DNA of 57,162 nt from Peptoniphilaceae bacterium (lineage in GTDB: Bacteria; Bacillota; Clostridia; Tissierellales; Peptoniphilaceae). The stretch covers positions 1 through 57,162 of the forward strand of contig JALEKO010000009.1 of the NCBI GenBank assembly GCA_022769085.1. Direction: 5' to 3'. Shown in pieces: positions 28,136 through 39,753 of this stretch. A model generated the notes under the pieces. The model did no database searches. It was not told the DNA's origin and worked only from the letters and a program-made list of their open reading frames with translations. Numbering within the stretch: position 1 is the first letter of the stretch; every line of letters begins with the position of its first letter. The position numbers and the translations under genes were made by a program.

Positions 28136-28705
28136 TTACTTCATGTATTTATTTACAGTATTTGAAAGTGTAAAGCTTAACTTATTATACAAATTTGAAG
28201 CTTTTTCATAGTCAAACGATCTAGTATTTGTCATGTAGTCATTTATTTCATCTATTACTGAATTTATTTTTTCATCATTTCCATATTCATTCATAATATT
28301 TTTTGAATATTTTATTAAGGAACTTATTTTATTAATTAAAAGCATACTTCTATATTCATCGTCATTTTCTCCAAGAAGTTTTCTAAGAGTCCAATCTTTA
28401 TTTGTTTTTGTAAGTCCTGCTTTATGCTCTACATAAAAGTCTGAATTTTGAAGGTAATCTAAAAATTTATACATTTCTTCTTTCTTTACATCTTTAAGAA
28501 GTAAAAATTCAAAATCAACATTTTTATCAAAATCACTTTCAATATCTATTTTTTGGTATCCTTCAATTTCTGCAAGATATCCTACCTTTTGGTCTAAATC
28601 TTTCATTGATATTATTTTAAGATCGTAATTAAACTCTTCTAAAATTTCTTTTAATCTTCTTTCTCTATCATTATTTTTAGGGTTGAAATATAATATTAAT
28701 GCCAT
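28136..28705 (-). CDS. DUF3783-like protein
   Basis: This 189-residue soluble protein appears to contain a DUF3783 domain in its first half (LILYFNPKNN..., VDFEFLLLKDVKKEEMYKFLDYLQ, about residues 60-90), followed by AGLTKTNKDWTLRKLLGE, which resembles the rest of that domain. The last 70 residues are helical. DUF3783 is of unknown function and common in Clostridia and Tissierellia. The gene starts 12 bases after the giant permease, with AAAAGGAG upstream, so cotranscription is likely. The family assignment is from memory of motifs. Confidence 0.7.
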   Translation of the reverse strand: MALILYFNPKNNDRERRLKEILEEFNYDLKIISMKDLDQKVGYLAEIEGYQKIDIESDFDKNVDFEFLLLKDVKKEEMYKFLDYLQNSDFYVEHKAGLTKTNKDWTLRKLLGENDDEYRSMLLINKISSLIKYSKNIMNEYGNDEKINSVIDEINDYMTNTRSFDYEKASNLYNKLSFTLSNTVNKYMK

Positions 28706-28717
28706 GTTTTCTCCTTT

Positions 28718-31700
28718 TTATTCAGGTGTTTTTAATGATTCCACCATATCAATTTTCTTTAATTTTTCATGCACTATAAACATTACAGTAAGTATAAAAA
28801 ATATTGTTATTGCCATAGATATAAAATAGTTTTTAAAATTCATTACTGGGTCAAGAAGTATATTTGTTGGAGCAAGCGTTACAACTATCCAAAGATGTAA
28901 TATTCTTCCAAAAACAAATCCTAAAAGTATTCCCATAACAGAAAGTATTAAAGTTTCTCTATATATATATAGTGTGATTTCTTTTGGTTTAAAACCTAAT
29001 ACTTTTATTGTAGAAAGTTCTCTTTTTCTTTCATCTACGTTAATATCTGTAAGATTATATAGTACAACAAGTGCAAGCCCTGATGATACAAAAACTATTA
29101 CCAAAACTATAAAGTTTAAGCTATAAAGAAGCGAATCTAAATTTGTCATTTCATTTTCTGTACTCATTGTAGATATTACAGAGTCAAAATTTGAAATTTT
29201 TTCTGCAATTTCTTCTTCTTTGGATACGTCAGTTAGTTTTAAAAAATCTGCATTATATTCTTTGTCAGCTTTATCAAATTTTTTTCTATACAAATTATCA
29301 CTCATGTAAATAAAATGGCCAACATAGTTTTCGGTTATATCTTTTATTTTAAGTTTAATAACATTTCCCATAGAATCTGTTATTTTTATTGTATCTCCTA
29401 CATTTTTATTTAACGACTTAGAAAGTTTTTCTGTTATTATAACGGAATTATCTTTAAGTTTTAAATTTTTATGAGTTTTTCTATCTCTTACAGATACGAA
29501 TTTTTCAAGACTATTTATATCTTCTGTTGCAATCACAGAAACATCTTCTTTTAATCCGCTTGTATTTAGTATTGTAGCTGAATCGTAAAAAACTTTCAGT
29601 GAATCTTTTACATTTTTTGTATTTTCAATAAATGAATTATATTCTTTTAAACTTTTTTCATTTGAATCTGGATTATAGACTGATAGTACATCAAATTTCC
29701 AAACGTCAGAAAATTGCTTATTCATAATTCCACTTACTGAATCTTTTATTCCAAATCCCATAGTTATTAAAGCTGTACAACCGCAAACACCAAATAATGT
29801 CATAAACATTCTATTTTTATATCTAAAAATATTTCTTAATGTAACTTTCCAAAGGAATGGTAACTTTTCCCAAATAAATTTAACTTTTTCTATAAAAGTT
29901 CTATTTCCATCTTTTGGAGGTTTTGGTCTTAATAATTGTGAAACTTTTTCTTTTAAGGAAGATTTTACAGCAATGTATGCTGCAAAAACTGTACAAATAA
30001 TATTTAATAAAAGTGATATCAATATAAAATTAAAATTCATATACATTGGAGCTTCTTTTATTACAGATATTGAAAAATAAGCTTTAAAAATAAGGGGCAT
30101 AAGTACATAGTATCCAAAAAGTCCACCTAATATTGCTCCAAAAATTGATACAAGTATTCCATAAACCAAATATTTTTTTGATATATCAAAATTTTTATAT
30201 CCTAAAGCTTTATATGTTCCTATTTCACTTCTGTCTGAATTTACCATTCTTGTCATTGAGGTTAATGATACTAAAAGTGCTATAAGATAAAATATTGTTG
30301 GAAATACAAAACTTAACATATCTAAATTGTTTGCACTTTCAAGATAAATTGCAATAATTGAATTATCGGTTATTGCATCAACTGAATATTTTACAGGTTT
30401 TATATTTTTTAAATCATCTTTTGCAATATCTATTTTCTCTTGACCTTTTTTTAATTTTTTAATATTTTTATCATATTCTTTATTAAATTTTTCTTTATTT
30501 TTATTTAACTCTTTTATACCTTCATTTATTTTTTTATTGGAATTTTCAAGTTGAATTTTTCCTTTTTTCTCTTTTTCTTCAAGAGTATTTTTAGATTTTA
30601 TTAAAGAATTTAAAGAGTTTTCATAATTTGCTTTTCCTTGATTATAAATATCTATTCCGTTTAAAAGCTCTTTTTCTCCATTTTTATATTTTTCAATTGA
30701 TAAATTAAGTTCACTTTCTTTTTCATATAATAAAGACTTTGAATTAGAAATTTCTTCTTTTGCTTTTTCTATTTTTTTAAAACCATCTTCTACTTTTAAA
30801 AGACTATCTTTTATATTTTCTAATTTTGAATTTAAATCATTTAAAGTATTATCAATTTGTAAAATAGATGAAGAAATTTTTTCTTTTGCATCTAATAAAT
30901 TTTTTAGAGTTACTTCAAAATCAACTTTTTTATTTTCTAAATTTATTATGTTTTCGTCAATTTCTAAAATTAAAGAGTCTAAATTTTCAGGTGATTTTTT
31001 TTGAAGTTCTTCCTTTTTAAAAATTAAATCATCTAAATTATTTTTTAAATTTTCCTTTTCTAAAGTTAGATAATTTATGTCTTTTGATTTTAAATTTTCT
31101 ATTTCTTCATCCAAAATTTTATTATCGTTTTCAAGTTTTGATAAATCATTTTTTAACAAATCTATTTTTGATAAATAATCTTCATTTGTTTTATTTAAAT
31201 TTTCTATTTCATTCTTAAAATTTTCAATATCCTCTTCACTTTCTGATGAATTGATACTATCATTTAATATTTCTATTTTTTTATTATTATCATTTATACT
31301 ATCTTCTAATGATGAAATATTCATATTTTTTTCATCTATAAGATTTGAATTTTGTATTTTTAAATTATTTAGTTCATCTAATTTTTTTGTATTATCTGTA
31401 GAATTTTCGATTTTTTCATCTAAATCTTTTAAATTATCATTTAGTTTTTCTATATTTAAATTAAGGTTATTAATTTCATCTTTTAAATGTAAAAGGGACT
31501 CTTTTTTTTCTTTTAAATTTTTTATTTTGTAATCAATCTTTTTATTAGAATCAGCTATAATTTCTTTATTTTCATTTAGGCTTTTTTCTTCATTTTCTAT
31601 ATTTTTAAGATTGTTTTGTAATTCATTTTTTTTACTATTTAAATCATTTATTGTTTGTTTTAAATCATTTTTTCCATCTTCTATTTTATTTTTTGAATCT

Positions 31701-32824
31701 ATTAATCTATTTAAATTTAATTCATATTCTTTTTGTGCGTCATTGAGTTTTTTCTTTGAAAGAGAAATTTCTTTTTTTCCACTGTCAATTAAATTTTTTG
31801 CATCTTTTAACTTTTTCTGGTTTTCTTCTATTAAATTTAAAGAAGAGCTTAGTTTTTTTTCTGCATCTTCAAGCTTTAAAAAACCATCATCAATTTTATA
31901 ATATGCATTTGAAATTTGAAAATTAAACTCTTTAAGAGAGTTTTCATATTCTTCTTTTGCATCATCAAGTTTTTTTTGATTTTCTTTTATCTTTTTTTGT
32001 GAATCGTCTAATTTTTCAAATCCAGAATCTATTTTTTTTTGATTTTTTTCTATTTTTTGATTTGCATCTTCTTTTATTTCTAAAGCTCTTATTTTAGGTC
32101 TATTATCTAAAATTTTTTTTAAATCTTCTCTTCTTTTTGTAATTTCATTTCTATATTTTTTTGATGAAATATCTAAATTTTTTAGATCATTAAAAGTAAG
32201 TAGTATATTTTGATACGAATTCTCCTTGAAATTTTCTTTTTTTACATAGCAAAAATAGTCTACTGACCCATCTCCTATTGTAGAAAATCCTCTTGCATCT
32301 GTATTTAAATAATCTATTGAATTTACAAATGCTGAAATTTTATATTTCGTATTTTTTAAATTTTTGCTTTCATCTTCAAATTCAATAAAATCCCCTATTT
32401 TATATCCTTTGTTTTTAAAAATGGAATCTACTGCAATTTCATTCTTATTTTTTGGGGCTTTTCCTTCTATATACTGAGGTTTAGAAATTTCGTCTGTAAG
32501 TGAAAAAACAGAAAATACAATATCTTCTTCATTTTTTAAAAATACATCTTGTTTATATACAGCTTCAACTTTTGATATGTTTTTATATGAATTTATCGTT
32601 TTTAAATCATCGTCATTAAAACCCAAAAGGCTTGAGATTTTTAAATCATATCCGTTTAATTCTTTTTTCATTTGGTTTATAGCAAAAGATACATTTGGGC
32701 CTGAAAGTCGTATTCCTACAAAAACTAAACTTCCGAGTGCAACCATTATTGTTGTTGCTAAAAATCTTATAAATGTTTTTTTAATATTTCTAAAAATATC
32801 TTTATTAAGTGAGCTTTTTTTCAT
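28718..32824 (-). CDS. Giant FtsX-like ABC permease with extracellular coiled coil
   Basis: This 1368-residue permease has an N-terminal transmembrane helix (about 18-38), a beta-rich extracellular region (40-245), a very long coiled coil of Lys/Glu/Asn/Leu heptads (about 248-806), then an FtsX domain with membrane segments near 836-858, 885-910 and 930-960. A second ectodomain and a final FtsX-type trio of helices (last about 130 residues) follow. FtsX-like permeases normally pair with a MacB/LolD-type ATPase that transmits force; no ATPase gene is adjacent. Similar proteins with long coils exist in Firmicutes; their role is not well known. It heads an operon with the DUF3783-like gene and udp. 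Confidence 0.92.
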   Translation of the reverse strand: MKKSSLNKDIFRNIKKTFIRFLATTIMVALGSLVFVGIRLSGPNVSFAINQMKKELNGYDLKISSLLGFNDDDLKTINSYKNISKVEAVYKQDVFLKNEEDIVFSVFSLTDEISKPQYIEGKAPKNKNEIAVDSIFKNKGYKIGDFIEFEDESKNLKNTKYKISAFVNSIDYLNTDARGFSTIGDGSVDYFCYVKKENFKENSYQNILLTFNDLKNLDISSKKYRNEITKRREDLKKILDNRPKIRALEIKEDANQKIEKNQKKIDSGFEKLDDSQKKIKENQKKLDDAKEEYENSLKEFNFQISNAYYKIDDGFLKLEDAEKKLSSSLNLIEENQKKLKDAKNLIDSGKKEISLSKKKLNDAQKEYELNLNRLIDSKNKIEDGKNDLKQTINDLNSKKNELQNNLKNIENEEKSLNENKEIIADSNKKIDYKIKNLKEKKESLLHLKDEINNLNLNIEKLNDNLKDLDEKIENSTDNTKKLDELNNLKIQNSNLIDEKNMNISSLEDSINDNNKKIEILNDSINSSESEEDIENFKNEIENLNKTNEDYLSKIDLLKNDLSKLENDNKILDEEIENLKSKDINYLTLEKENLKNNLDDLIFKKEELQKKSPENLDSLILEIDENIINLENKKVDFEVTLKNLLDAKEKISSSILQIDNTLNDLNSKLENIKDSLLKVEDGFKKIEKAKEEISNSKSLLYEKESELNLSIEKYKNGEKELLNGIDIYNQGKANYENSLNSLIKSKNTLEEKEKKGKIQLENSNKKINEGIKELNKNKEKFNKEYDKNIKKLKKGQEKIDIAKDDLKNIKPVKYSVDAITDNSIIAIYLESANNLDMLSFVFPTIFYLIALLVSLTSMTRMVNSDRSEIGTYKALGYKNFDISKKYLVYGILVSIFGAILGGLFGYYVLMPLIFKAYFSISVIKEAPMYMNFNFILISLLLNIICTVFAAYIAVKSSLKEKVSQLLRPKPPKDGNRTFIEKVKFIWEKLPFLWKVTLRNIFRYKNRMFMTLFGVCGCTALITMGFGIKDSVSGIMNKQFSDVWKFDVLSVYNPDSNEKSLKEYNSFIENTKNVKDSLKVFYDSATILNTSGLKEDVSVIATEDINSLEKFVSVRDRKTHKNLKLKDNSVIITEKLSKSLNKNVGDTIKITDSMGNVIKLKIKDITENYVGHFIYMSDNLYRKKFDKADKEYNADFLKLTDVSKEEEIAEKISNFDSVISTMSTENEMTNLDSLLYSLNFIVLVIVFVSSGLALVVLYNLTDINVDERKRELSTIKVLGFKPKEITLYIYRETLILSVMGILLGFVFGRILHLWIVVTLAPTNILLDPVMNFKNYFISMAITIFFILTVMFIVHEKLKKIDMVESLKTPE

Positions 32825-34982: not shown

Positions 34983-36569
34983 ATGATAGTTGGATTATTA
35001 GGAGGTCTTGCTCTATTTCTTTTCGGTATGGATTTAATGAGTAAGGGTCTCGAACTGACTGCAGGAGATAAGCTGCAGATGATTTTGGAAAAGCTCACAA
35101 ATAATAAAATTATGGGCATAATTTTAGGTACTGTAGTTACTGCACTTGTTCAATCATCTTCAGCTGTAACAGTAACTCTTGTAGGATTTGTAAATAGTGG
35201 AATAATGTCTTTAAATCAGGCAATTTCAGTTATAATGGGGGCTAATATAGGAACTACTGTTACAGGGCAGATAGTTGCTTTAAATATAACAGAGTATGCA
35301 CCTCTTATTGCTTTTGCAGGTTTTGTTATGTTTACATTTATTCCAAAAGTAAAAATTAAGTATATAGGTCAAACTGTTATGGGGCTTGGCTTTTTATTTA
35401 TGGGTCTTAATTTTATGAGTGAGTCTATGGCTCCTCTTAGAGATAATCAGGAATTTATTTCAATTCTTACAAGATTTGAAAATCCAGGATTGGGAATTTT
35501 TGCAGGAACTATTTTGACAGGCATTATTCAATCTTCATCTGCATCTGTTGGAATTTTACAAAGTATTGCAAATCAAGGAATTATTTCTTTAAGTAGTTCA
35601 ATGTACATTATTTTTGGGTTTAATATTGGTACATGCGTTACTTCTGTATTATCTTCAATAAACGGTACAAAAAGTGCAAAAAGAACAGCGCTAAGCCACG
35701 TTTTATTTAATATTGGTGGAACGATTATATTTTTGGTTTTAAATTTGTTTGTTGATATTCCGACAATAATAAAAGCTATTTCACCATCACTTCCAGCAGC
35801 TCAAATTGCAAATTTACATACGATATTTAATATAGTAACAACAATTTTACTTTTCCCAGTGTCTGATTATATTGGGAAAATTGCAATTAAACTTATACCA
35901 GGAGAAGATAAAGAAAGAGATGAACTTTCACTTCAATATATAGGAATTATAAGCAAAGATCCATCACTGAGATTTAGTAACTTAAAAGCTGAAATTATTA
36001 GAATGCTTAAAGTAAGCATGGAAAATTATATTTTGGCAAACAAAATATTTTTTAGTTATAGCCAAAAAGATTATGATAAAATCATGCATAATGAAGAGCT
36101 TATAAATTATTTAAACAAAGAACTTACAAAATATATAATATCCATGTTGGATGAGGCTTTAAATGATTCTGCTGCAAATAAATTATCCAATTACATGAAT
36201 ATAACAAGAAGAATAGAAAGAATTGGCGATCACAGTAAAGCACTTGCAGAAAATGCAAAGTATTCTCATGAAAAAAATCTATTCTATTCTCAAAGTTCTA
36301 AAGATGAATATGTACAGGTAAGAGATAATGCAAGAGAAATGTTTGAAATAGTTTTATCAGATATATCTGGTGAAGAAAAAGAAAATCAGACTAGAAAAAT
36401 TGCAAAAGAAATTGATGAGTTAACTGATAAGTATAGAATTCTCCATATAGAAAGAATGAAAAATCACCTGTGCGATCCTGAAAGTGGACTTATTTTTGAA
36501 AAATTCCTTACAGAAATTCAAAGAATTTCAGAATATTTATTAAAGATAACTCTTTTATTTAATGAATAG
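34983..36569 (+). CDS. Na/Pi cotransporter family protein with PhoU-like domain
   Basis: This 528-residue membrane protein has two Na/Pi cotransporter repeats, with the family motif QSSSAVTVTLVGFVNSGIM (about 57-75) and its partner IQSSSASVGILQSIANQGII (about 180-200). The C-terminal 190 residues form a soluble helical PhoU-like domain (RRIERIGDHSKALAENA around 412-428). Family members import phosphate, and the PhoU domain is thought to regulate it. TAGGAGG precedes the ATG. It is followed by two unknown genes with short gaps, forming one likely operon. Confidence 0.92.
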   Translation: MIVGLLGGLALFLFGMDLMSKGLELTAGDKLQMILEKLTNNKIMGIILGTVVTALVQSSSAVTVTLVGFVNSGIMSLNQAISVIMGANIGTTVTGQIVALNITEYAPLIAFAGFVMFTFIPKVKIKYIGQTVMGLGFLFMGLNFMSESMAPLRDNQEFISILTRFENPGLGIFAGTILTGIIQSSSASVGILQSIANQGIISLSSSMYIIFGFNIGTCVTSVLSSINGTKSAKRTALSHVLFNIGGTIIFLVLNLFVDIPTIIKAISPSLPAAQIANLHTIFNIVTTILLFPVSDYIGKIAIKLIPGEDKERDELSLQYIGIISKDPSLRFSNLKAEIIRMLKVSMENYILANKIFFSYSQKDYDKIMHNEELINYLNKELTKYIISMLDEALNDSAANKLSNYMNITRRIERIGDHSKALAENAKYSHEKNLFYSQSSKDEYVQVRDNAREMFEIVLSDISGEEKENQTRKIAKEIDELTDKYRILHIERMKNHLCDPESGLIFEKFLTEIQRISEYLLKITLLFNE

Positions 36570-36583
36570 AAAGGTGAGTTTAT

Positions 36584-37009
36584 ATGAATAGAAATTTCGA
36601 ATATTCAAAAAAACTAATTGATGATGCAAAAAAACTTATATATGATTTAGAAAATATAAAAGCTAATATAAGAAGGTCAAACAATTTTTCATCCGTTAAC
36701 TTTGTAGGAAGAAATAGTTTTGGAAATTTTATTAGAAATTTAAAAGTTAATTCAATTAATAAAAATCTTCAACAAGCACAAGAAAAAATACAAAAATTTG
36801 ACAGTTCACTAATACTTCTTGACGATGGTTTATCAAAAAAAATAAGAATGCCTTATAAATTACCACAATTTAATAGAGTTTCTTATAAAATATCTGATAT
36901 CTCGTGGAGAATAAAAATGCGTAAAAAACAACTTGAAATTGAAAATTCAATTAACGATGTTAAAGCTGTTTTAAAAAAACTTGTATTTATAAAAAATAAA
37001 AATAAATGA
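36584..37009 (+). CDS. Unrecognised basic helical protein (141 residues)
   Basis: I do not recognise this protein. It is strongly basic (Lys and Arg well exceed Asp and Glu), Asn-rich, and has predicted-looking amphipathic helices at about 8-32, 60-75 and 105-135 with no signal peptide or membrane segment. AGAAAGGTGAG precedes the ATG. It lies 14 bases after the phosphate cotransporter gene and 42 bases before the acidic repeat protein. The opposite charge of those two neighbours suggests they may bind each other or a polyanion, which is inference only. Confidence 0.8.
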   Translation: MNRNFEYSKKLIDDAKKLIYDLENIKANIRRSNNFSSVNFVGRNSFGNFIRNLKVNSINKNLQQAQEKIQKFDSSLILLDDGLSKKIRMPYKLPQFNRVSYKISDISWRIKMRKKQLEIENSINDVKAVLKKLVFIKNKNK

Positions 37010-37051
37010 CATTTTTTAAAATATTAAATTATTTTAAGAAAGGAAGATAAT

Positions 37052-38812
37052 TTGGATATATTAAATTTAGAAAAATCTATAGAGAAAGCACATGAATTAG
37101 AAATTACAGATTTTTTGAATACTGATGTTGAAATTTTAAAAAGATTTAAAGAATCATATTTAAAAGCATTAAAACTATATATAAATTTTTTAAATGGAAA
37201 TGAAACAGATGATAATGAAGTTTTAGAAACAACAAAAAAATTGAATTCATTATCTCTTATAGTTGAAAAATCAAAGCTTAATGAAACTAAAGATGCAATT
37301 GATAATTTAATGGAATTTAAAAATAATGAAAATTTCAATGATTTATCTGATGAAGAAAAAGATGACTTTATAATTAAGTTAAACGATCTTCAAAGTTCAT
37401 ATGAAAAATTAATTTCAGGAAGTATTGAAGAGAAAGAATTTGATGAAAAGATGGAAATTATTTCAAATTTAAAAAATAAATTTGAAATAATTAAAAATCC
37501 AAAACAAAAAGAAGTTTCAGATTTTATAAAGTTATGCAACGAATTTGAAAAAGAGATGGCATTTAATGATGCTGACCAAAATAAAAAAAGTGAATATTAT
37601 TCAGCAAAAAAGAATATAGAAAATATTTATGAGAATTTAAATAAAACAAACCAATTTGACGAAGAATTTTACAATTACAAAAAGAAAATTGAAGATATTA
37701 TAAATTTTCTAAGAGAAAAAAGAACTTTTATGGAAAATAGAATTCTTGGGGTAATGAATGATATTGAAAGTGCAAAAGAAAATGGAAAATTTGACGATGC
37801 AAGTGAAGAAGAGACAAAAACTCTTATAAATGCAATAGAAAATGCTACAAGCTTGCAAGGTAAGGATGTAAGTTCAAAAAAGATTGAAGAAGCACTTGAA
37901 AGTCTTTCTAATGCAATTTTAAATTTAGGAAAAAGTAAAGAAGAAGAAAGAAAAAAAGAATTAGAGCCTTTAGATGAGATTACTCTTAATAGACTTTCTC
38001 TTGCAATAGAAAAATCAAAAAAGATAATTGAAACTAATGCATATGAAGATGCATCTCCACATAAAAAAATAGATTTTGAATCTTCTGTTGAAAAACTTTA
38101 TTTTTTTGATAAAGCTATAAAAAGCGGTTTAAAAGATGAAATTTTGAAAAAAGATGTTTCAAAAGCTATTGATAATTTGCAAAAATCAACTTTTGAGCTT
38201 GACGGTGAAGATGGAAAAATTTTAGATATTTATGAAGATGAAAAACAAAAAAGTTTAAATATTGGAAATGGTAGAAATCTTGAACTTGATTTAGAAAAAG
38301 GCGTAACAAAACAGGAAATAGATGATATTATAAAAGAGAAAAAGCAAAAAAAAGTTGATGATAAAACTCAAAATATCAAGTCATATAAAATTTTAAGAGA
38401 AGAACTTGTTGATGAAATAAGATTTGCAATTGATGCAAGAGATAGCGATGTTTATAAAGATTCTTCACAAAAACTAAAGCTTGAACATGAACAAGTAATT
38501 TTAAATGCAAAAAAAATATTAGAGGATACTAATTCTGATAAAAAAGACTATAAGAAAGCAATAAATAAAATAAAAATATCTATTAGAAATATCAGAAATA
38601 TTGATGATAAAGATTTGTATGATGAAATAAAAAATGCTATTTATGTAAAAAAATCAAATTTATTTGATAGTGCAACAGAAGGAGCAAAAGAATTTTTTGA
38701 TAGAGCATTTGAAAGGGCAAATTTAAGAAAAGAAGATATAAATTTAAAGTATGATGAAGCTTTAAGTCTTAAAGAAGATTTAAAAGAAGCAATAAAAAAT
38801 TTATATATTTAA
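37052..38812 (+). CDS. Unrecognised acidic protein with about seven FIVAR-like repeats
   Basis: The 586-residue protein, starting at TTG with AAAGGAAG upstream, has no signal peptide, membrane helix or wall anchor. I can see about seven degenerate helical repeats of 65-85 residues, near 3-71, 75-148, 153-223, 229-293, 309-391, 445-516 and 521-586. Most carry an aligned DAS/DAD/DLS-type turn followed by an acidic helix (for example DLSDEEKDDF, DASEEETKTL, DASPHKKIDF, DSSQKLKLEH). The pattern recalls FIVAR modules of surface proteins, but those are exported, whereas this looks cytoplasmic. A low-complexity, charged stretch (about 392-440) separates repeats five and six. It is third in an operon behind the basic protein. 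Confidence 0.85.
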   Translation: MDILNLEKSIEKAHELEITDFLNTDVEILKRFKESYLKALKLYINFLNGNETDDNEVLETTKKLNSLSLIVEKSKLNETKDAIDNLMEFKNNENFNDLSDEEKDDFIIKLNDLQSSYEKLISGSIEEKEFDEKMEIISNLKNKFEIIKNPKQKEVSDFIKLCNEFEKEMAFNDADQNKKSEYYSAKKNIENIYENLNKTNQFDEEFYNYKKKIEDIINFLREKRTFMENRILGVMNDIESAKENGKFDDASEEETKTLINAIENATSLQGKDVSSKKIEEALESLSNAILNLGKSKEEERKKELEPLDEITLNRLSLAIEKSKKIIETNAYEDASPHKKIDFESSVEKLYFFDKAIKSGLKDEILKKDVSKAIDNLQKSTFELDGEDGKILDIYEDEKQKSLNIGNGRNLELDLEKGVTKQEIDDIIKEKKQKKVDDKTQNIKSYKILREELVDEIRFAIDARDSDVYKDSSQKLKLEHEQVILNAKKILEDTNSDKKDYKKAINKIKISIRNIRNIDDKDLYDEIKNAIYVKKSNLFDSATEGAKEFFDRAFERANLRKEDINLKYDEALSLKEDLKEAIKNLYI

Positions 38813-38858: not shown

Positions 38859-38894
38859 AAAAAAGATATGATCTTTTATGGTCATATCTTTTTT
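38859..38894. terminator. Bidirectional terminator between repeat protein and HAD phosphatase
   Basis: AAAAAAGATATGA pairs perfectly with TCATATCTTTTTT around a 10-base loop between convergent genes. Confidence 0.9.
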
Positions 38895-38910: not shown

Positions 38911-39753
38911 TTAAATTTTAGAATTTTTTGTGAAGTTTTCACATTTATTTTTTAAAAGTTTATCAATTGCAAAATAGACTCCATCTTTTTTGTTAGAAAG
39001 AGTAACAAAATCTGCAAAGTTTTTAACATATTCACTTGAATTTCCCATAGCGATAGAAAGTCCAGATTCTTCAAACATTGGTATATCATTAAGTTCATTT
39101 CCTATAGACATTATTTCATTTTTTTTAACGTTTAGCATATTTGAAAGGTCGTAAACTCCTTTACCTTTATTTGTTTTTTTTGCTATAATTTCAAATAAAT
39201 ATCTTTCTGTTCTTACACAGTAATATTTTTCTGACAATTCTTTTGGAAGATTATTAGAAAAATTTGTTATATTTTTGTTATTTCCCATAACTAAAATTCT
39301 TCCAAATTCCTTATCTTCATTAAAATTTTTAAAATTTACTCTTCTAAGTTTTCTTTTAGCAATGAAAGAATCGCCTATTAAAAAAATATTTGGTAGTTTT
39401 TCATTTGTATAAAAAAATTTTTCATCCATAAAGCCCATTTGAAGTTTGAATTTTTTTAAAAATTTTTCAACGAATTTTAAGTCGGTTGTTCTAAGACAAT
39501 TTTTAGCAACAACAGCTCCATTGCTATTTCTATGTATATAAGCACCATTTTGTGTAACAGAAAATGAATTTTCTTTATTTAGTGATAATTTATCAATATA
39601 ACTTTTCATTCCTGAAAAAGGTCTTCCACTTGCAAGTGCAATATAAAGTCCATTTTCAGATGCTTTTTTTATAATTTTTTCTGTATTTTTTGTAATTCTT
39701 TTCATCGGCGTAACTAAAGTGCCGTCAATATCAATTGTAATAAGTTTAATCAT
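38911..39753 (-). CDS. Cof-type HAD-IIB phosphatase
   Basis: The 280-residue protein has the HAD catalytic DIDGTL (D8, D10), motif II LASGRPF (about 40-46), a type IIB cap in the middle and late KGKGVYDL and GNELNDIPMFEESGLSIAMGN (motifs III/IV). Cof-like phosphatases act on sugar phosphates, flavins or thiamine precursors; the substrate is not readable. It is a single gene divergent from the radical SAM gene, with a short intergenic region. Confidence 0.92.
   Translation of the reverse strand: MIKLITIDIDGTLVTPMKRITKNTEKIIKKASENGLYIALASGRPFSGMKSYIDKLSLNKENSFSVTQNGAYIHRNSNGAVVAKNCLRTTDLKFVEKFLKKFKLQMGFMDEKFFYTNEKLPNIFLIGDSFIAKRKLRRVNFKNFNEDKEFGRILVMGNNKNITNFSNNLPKELSEKYYCVRTERYLFEIIAKKTNKGKGVYDLSNMLNVKKNEIMSIGNELNDIPMFEESGLSIAMGNSSEYVKNFADFVTLSNKKDGVYFAIDKLLKNKCENFTKNSKI

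Follow-up and report, generated by a model that had tools for sequence, protein, structure and literature searches.

A leaderless array of FIVAR/Ebh-type modules encoded behind a phosphate cotransporter and a basic helical protein in a Peptoniphilaceae bacterium

FIVAR modules (PF07554) and the Ebh/EbhA modules of Staphylococcus (PDB 2dgj and 4kjm) are regarded as parts of exported proteins, and publications that combine FIVAR with the term "intracellular" deal, to judge by their titles, mostly with surface or secreted proteins. Here we describe a 586-residue protein that shares with both module types a repeat length of about 70–77 residues, profile matches to each, and a Y/F-x-D/N-A-S/D turn with a K..F/Y..A helix pattern after it. 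It differs from them in scoring below the Pfam cut-off, in being strongly acidic overall, in carrying neither signal peptide nor wall anchor, and in forming a short array behind a transporter gene. The gene lies in a window of 57,162 nucleotides (the whole stretch of DNA that was analysed), within the following arrangement:

34983 to 36569, + strand: Na/Pi cotransporter with C-terminal PhoU domain, 528 residues (PF02690, E 6e-64; PF01895, E 6e-10)
36584 to 37009, + strand: basic protein of 141 residues with three long predicted helices, located 3' of the transporter gene and described from its homologs, a profile match to a wider family and a structure model
37052 to 38812, + strand: acidic leaderless FIVAR/Ebh-type repeat protein, 586 residues, with a TTG start and the ribosome-binding site AAGGAAG
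38859 to 38894, + strand: A+T-rich hairpin with a T run, a likely transcript end seen in the sequence

Open reading frames, sizes, order and spacing are all as the original prediction had described them. The gaps within the trio measure 14 bases (transporter to basic gene) and 42 bases (basic to acidic gene), the latter two genes are each preceded by a ribosome-binding site, and because of this short spacing the three genes are probably co-transcribed. The hairpin is absent from the terminator-scan listing, probably because it contains few G-C pairs. The cotransporter, which also matches TIGR00704 and NF037997 above cut-off, is an ordinary member of its family (TIGR00704, PF02690, with PhoU) and has no unusual feature. 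Both the basic and the acidic gene use codons as neighbouring genes do, and by this measure the acidic-protein gene resembles a settled native gene. The acidic protein has a pI of 4.96 and a net charge of -27, and the basic protein a pI of 10.26 and a net charge of +17.5; this opposition is a weak sign of pairing, because the HAD-type neighbour (38911-39753) is likewise at +17.6.

Repeat units and their relation to FIVAR and Ebh

Aligned with itself, the 586-residue protein gave a best off-diagonal score of 200, compared to 121 ± 20 for shuffled sequences (maximum 175, n = 60) and 126 ± 17 (maximum 175) for a locally shuffled control, the alignment being offset by about 75 residues over most of the protein. 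Individual units, their borders set by eye, were then scored with leave-one-out profiles against 500 shuffles each:

37052 to 37273, + strand: R1, residues 1–74, putative degenerate repeat; at chance with the N-terminal helix included, with a helix pattern like that of the other units in a low-confidence model
37274 to 37501, + strand: R2, residues 75–150; above 500/500 shuffles
37502 to 37729, + strand: R3, residues 151–226; above 500/500 shuffles
37730 to 37948, + strand: R4, residues 227–299, the most FIVAR-like unit (FIVAR E 1.5e-5, 26 bits when searched alone); above 500/500 shuffles
37976 to 38206, + strand: R5, residues 309–385; above 500/500 shuffles
38207 to 38380, + strand: 58-residue linker separating R5 from R6, outside any repeat, read from the sequence
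38381 to 38602, + strand: R6, residues 444–517; weaker, above 488/500 shuffles (12/500 reach its score)
38603 to 38809, + strand: R7, residues 518–586; above 500/500 shuffles

Of the roughly seven repeats originally proposed, six (R2–R7) of about 75 residues are therefore detected, R6 weakly, and a degenerate N-terminal seventh, R1, is plausible while lacking statistical support. Charge is distributed unevenly over the units, R6 being slightly positive. In an AlphaFold model of the acidic protein computed with no alignment, helices appear in a compatible pattern at a pLDDT of only 52, and each module may adopt a three-helix fold, as judged from sequence.

Some of the leave-one-out profiles gave coiled-coil controls scores as high as 18 bits, so that this test alone is not specific; what it cannot provide is supplied by the matches to FIVAR and Ebh profiles. 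In Pfam, the full-length protein matches FIVAR best (E 0.0013, three stretches, 19.7 bits). In a genome scan the acidic gene gave the only FIVAR match (25 bits) in the source genome (about 82% complete), and all of its FIVAR scores, including that of R4, lie under the Pfam gathering cut-off of 29.2 bits that defines membership. A profile built from R2–R7 only aligned with a set of 16 FIVAR domains taken from relatives at an hhalign probability of 90.3% (E 1.5e-6), compared to 0.4% and 0.1% for two unrelated helical families, one of which gave 0.3% with the FIVAR alignment itself. Among 177,635 PDB sequences, the best match of the same profile was Staphylococcus EbhA (2dgj, E 2.1e-5), and Ebh 4kjm was found too; a PDB search with the single 586-residue sequence gave a chance match only. 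FIVAR arrays already known from relatives, such as G142:C1:630355 and G075:C1:399941, are likewise found by the R2–R7 profile. Together, these profile comparisons establish a relation of the acidic protein to FIVAR/Ebh modules at the superfamily level, and the similarity to PF07554 that had been proposed for it is borne out. NCBIfam holds no meaningful family for either the acidic or the basic protein. A 564-codon open frame in another genome (G032), matched by the repeat profile, proved to encode a helicase-like restriction protein and was rejected as an ortholog.

Export signals and distribution of the acidic protein

As originally noted, the acidic protein has no signal peptide or wall anchor. 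No hydrophobic segment is present at its N-terminus, where the best 15-residue hydropathy within the first 45 residues is 0.33, compared to 1.7–3.0 for the corresponding segment of exported relatives, and its C-terminus ends in AIKNLYI. With 594 open codons in all, the frame leaves room for only some 8 codons before the assigned start, and therefore no leader is hidden by a wrongly chosen start. By the usual description of FIVAR/Ebh-type surface proteins, namely a signal peptide plus a wall or membrane anchor, the protein falls outside that class. FIVAR matches occur in 99/130 genomes of the family, and among relatives the complete FIVAR-type proteins that we inspected have a signal peptide or an anchor at the C-terminus; some open frames with FIVAR in relatives lack a leader, terminate in an anchor and resemble broken genes.

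At E 0.001, no relative of the full-length protein was found among 248 other genomes of the order, nor were homologs found in 60 relatives. Searches of genome contigs, viral contigs and plasmids likewise returned none; the two contig scans among them use short peptide patterns, which have little power for a protein this divergent.

The basic protein and its gene neighbourhood

The basic protein is predicted with confidence as a bundle of three long helices (pLDDT 88, pTM 0.82). Foldseek searches with this model gave generic helical bundles only, with no match at E 0.001 or better, and the best VIA-align Z score, 12.1, is within the range expected of helical bundles. A phage search with the protein returned nothing; its best PHROG is phrog_9120, a weak match (E 2e-4) to a group of unknown function. 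A profile of its family aligned over the C-terminal part with a broad clostridial set (hhalign 96.6%, E 6e-10), which places it, as a short and divergent representative, in a broad and uncatalogued helical family of Clostridia. Members of that family span 127–354 residues and carry an NWG-x-(W/Y/F)D...GG...KHxKI motif (e.g. L075, L072 and L084); neither Pfam nor NCBIfam has a model for the family. Unlike them, both the basic protein and its relatives in Anaerococcus are without NWG and GG and have a GRN or RGN motif instead. The clostridial family has short and long forms, the long ones adding an N-terminal coiled coil; members with NWG...D..GG...KHSKID were seen at L072:1048-1992, L075:1066-1998, L070, L071, L078, L074:1504-1920, L084:1474-1857 and L063:8503-8910.

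Conservation of the trio in related genomes had been set beforehand as a check on the original prediction, and the trio is not kept: elsewhere the basic protein occurs with no acidic partner, and among the genomes examined the three genes stand together in the source genome only. This outcome counts against the proposed complex and leaves the repeat claim standing. The transporter–basic pair recurs only in two metagenome-assembled genomes (MAGs) of a sister genus, with the basic gene directly behind the transporter (61–62% identity for the transporter, 44–46% for the basic protein) and unrelated genes, a GntR-type regulator and a sulfatase, in place of the acidic gene. In the genus of Anaerococcus jeddahensis, relatives of the basic protein are present in all 31 genomes found by the search. 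In the Anaerococcus loci that we read (n = 11) the basic protein is never beside the transporter; in 10/11 it adjoins, on the opposite strand, a homolog of the window's 189-residue protein (28136-28705), and a homolog of the HAD-type protein is often near. In the window itself, the genes for the 189-residue protein and the basic protein are 8 kb apart. The neighbourhood of the transporter in other genomes (29 loci, about 1.5 kb) contained neither the basic protein nor the repeat protein.

Possible roles of the leaderless array

The account we favour, and hold to be reasonably likely, is that of a lineage-specific, leaderless FIVAR/Ebh-type array, probably co-transcribed with its upstream neighbours, that most likely acts as a spacer or scaffold inside the cell. 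The protein consists of six or seven divergent modules in tandem and probably shares ancestry with the FIVAR modules that are common among the exported proteins of this bacterial family; the nature of such arrays is what suggests a spacer or scaffold of long, acidic and rod-like shape. Its modules are of the exported kind and complete FIVAR-type relatives bear a leader or an anchor, which lends some weight to a different explanation, in which the protein is a surface protein that has lost these parts, being either a remnant nearing loss or exported without a classical signal. Against such a loss stand the unbroken frame of 586 codons, its ribosome-binding site, its native codon usage and flanks free of leader-like or anchor-like sequence; this explanation is unlikely overall, with non-classical export of the protein a possibility. 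That the repeats reflect a generic helical or coiled-coil bias, with no family relation, is suggested by the coiled-coil controls that scored with the leave-one-out profiles. This view has already been largely refuted and is very improbable, given that the unrelated helical families gave 0.1–0.4% where FIVAR gave 90%, that EbhA tops the PDB search, and that a long coiled-coil permease in the window has no FIVAR match.

The original prediction had further proposed, from charge and adjacency alone, a complex of the acidic and basic proteins, possibly with polyphosphate or nucleic acid. In its fuller form, the two proteins would associate at the cytoplasmic face of the Na/Pi cotransporter, perhaps contacting PhoU or a polyphosphate-like polyanion. 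Adjacency, likely co-transcription, opposite charge and the retention of the transporter–basic pair in the sister-genus MAGs are consistent with such an assembly. However, unrelated genes replace the acidic gene in those same MAGs, Anaerococcus has the basic protein with no adjacent transporter, the 29 transporter loci elsewhere have neither gene, and the charge of the HAD-type neighbour weakens opposite charge as a sign of pairing. With gene order thus speaking against it, we consider the complex quite unlikely, and none of our findings points to polyphosphate or nucleic acid. Still more speculative, and in our estimate most improbable, is a surface-type FIVAR array drawn into the cytoplasm in this lineage as a scaffold that couples the basic helical protein to the PhoU-bearing phosphate transporter.

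An intact FIVAR/Ebh array without export signal would represent re-use of the domain inside the cell. The basic protein, for its part, reveals a helical family that is widespread in Clostridia and has no name. Both points are modest unless a function is found. Other proteins also came to light. Anaerococcus-type exported helical proteins (L119:3207-4448, L120:3090-4346, L121:2988-4295, L122:2914-4191 and L126:3100-4356) have a signal peptide, a common RSFVRTG segment, a C-terminal membrane helix and a conserved neighbourhood. At 28718-32824, the window encodes a permease-like protein of 1368 residues that includes an inserted coiled coil almost 600 residues long, and a homolog of 1356 residues is found at L055:9634-13704.
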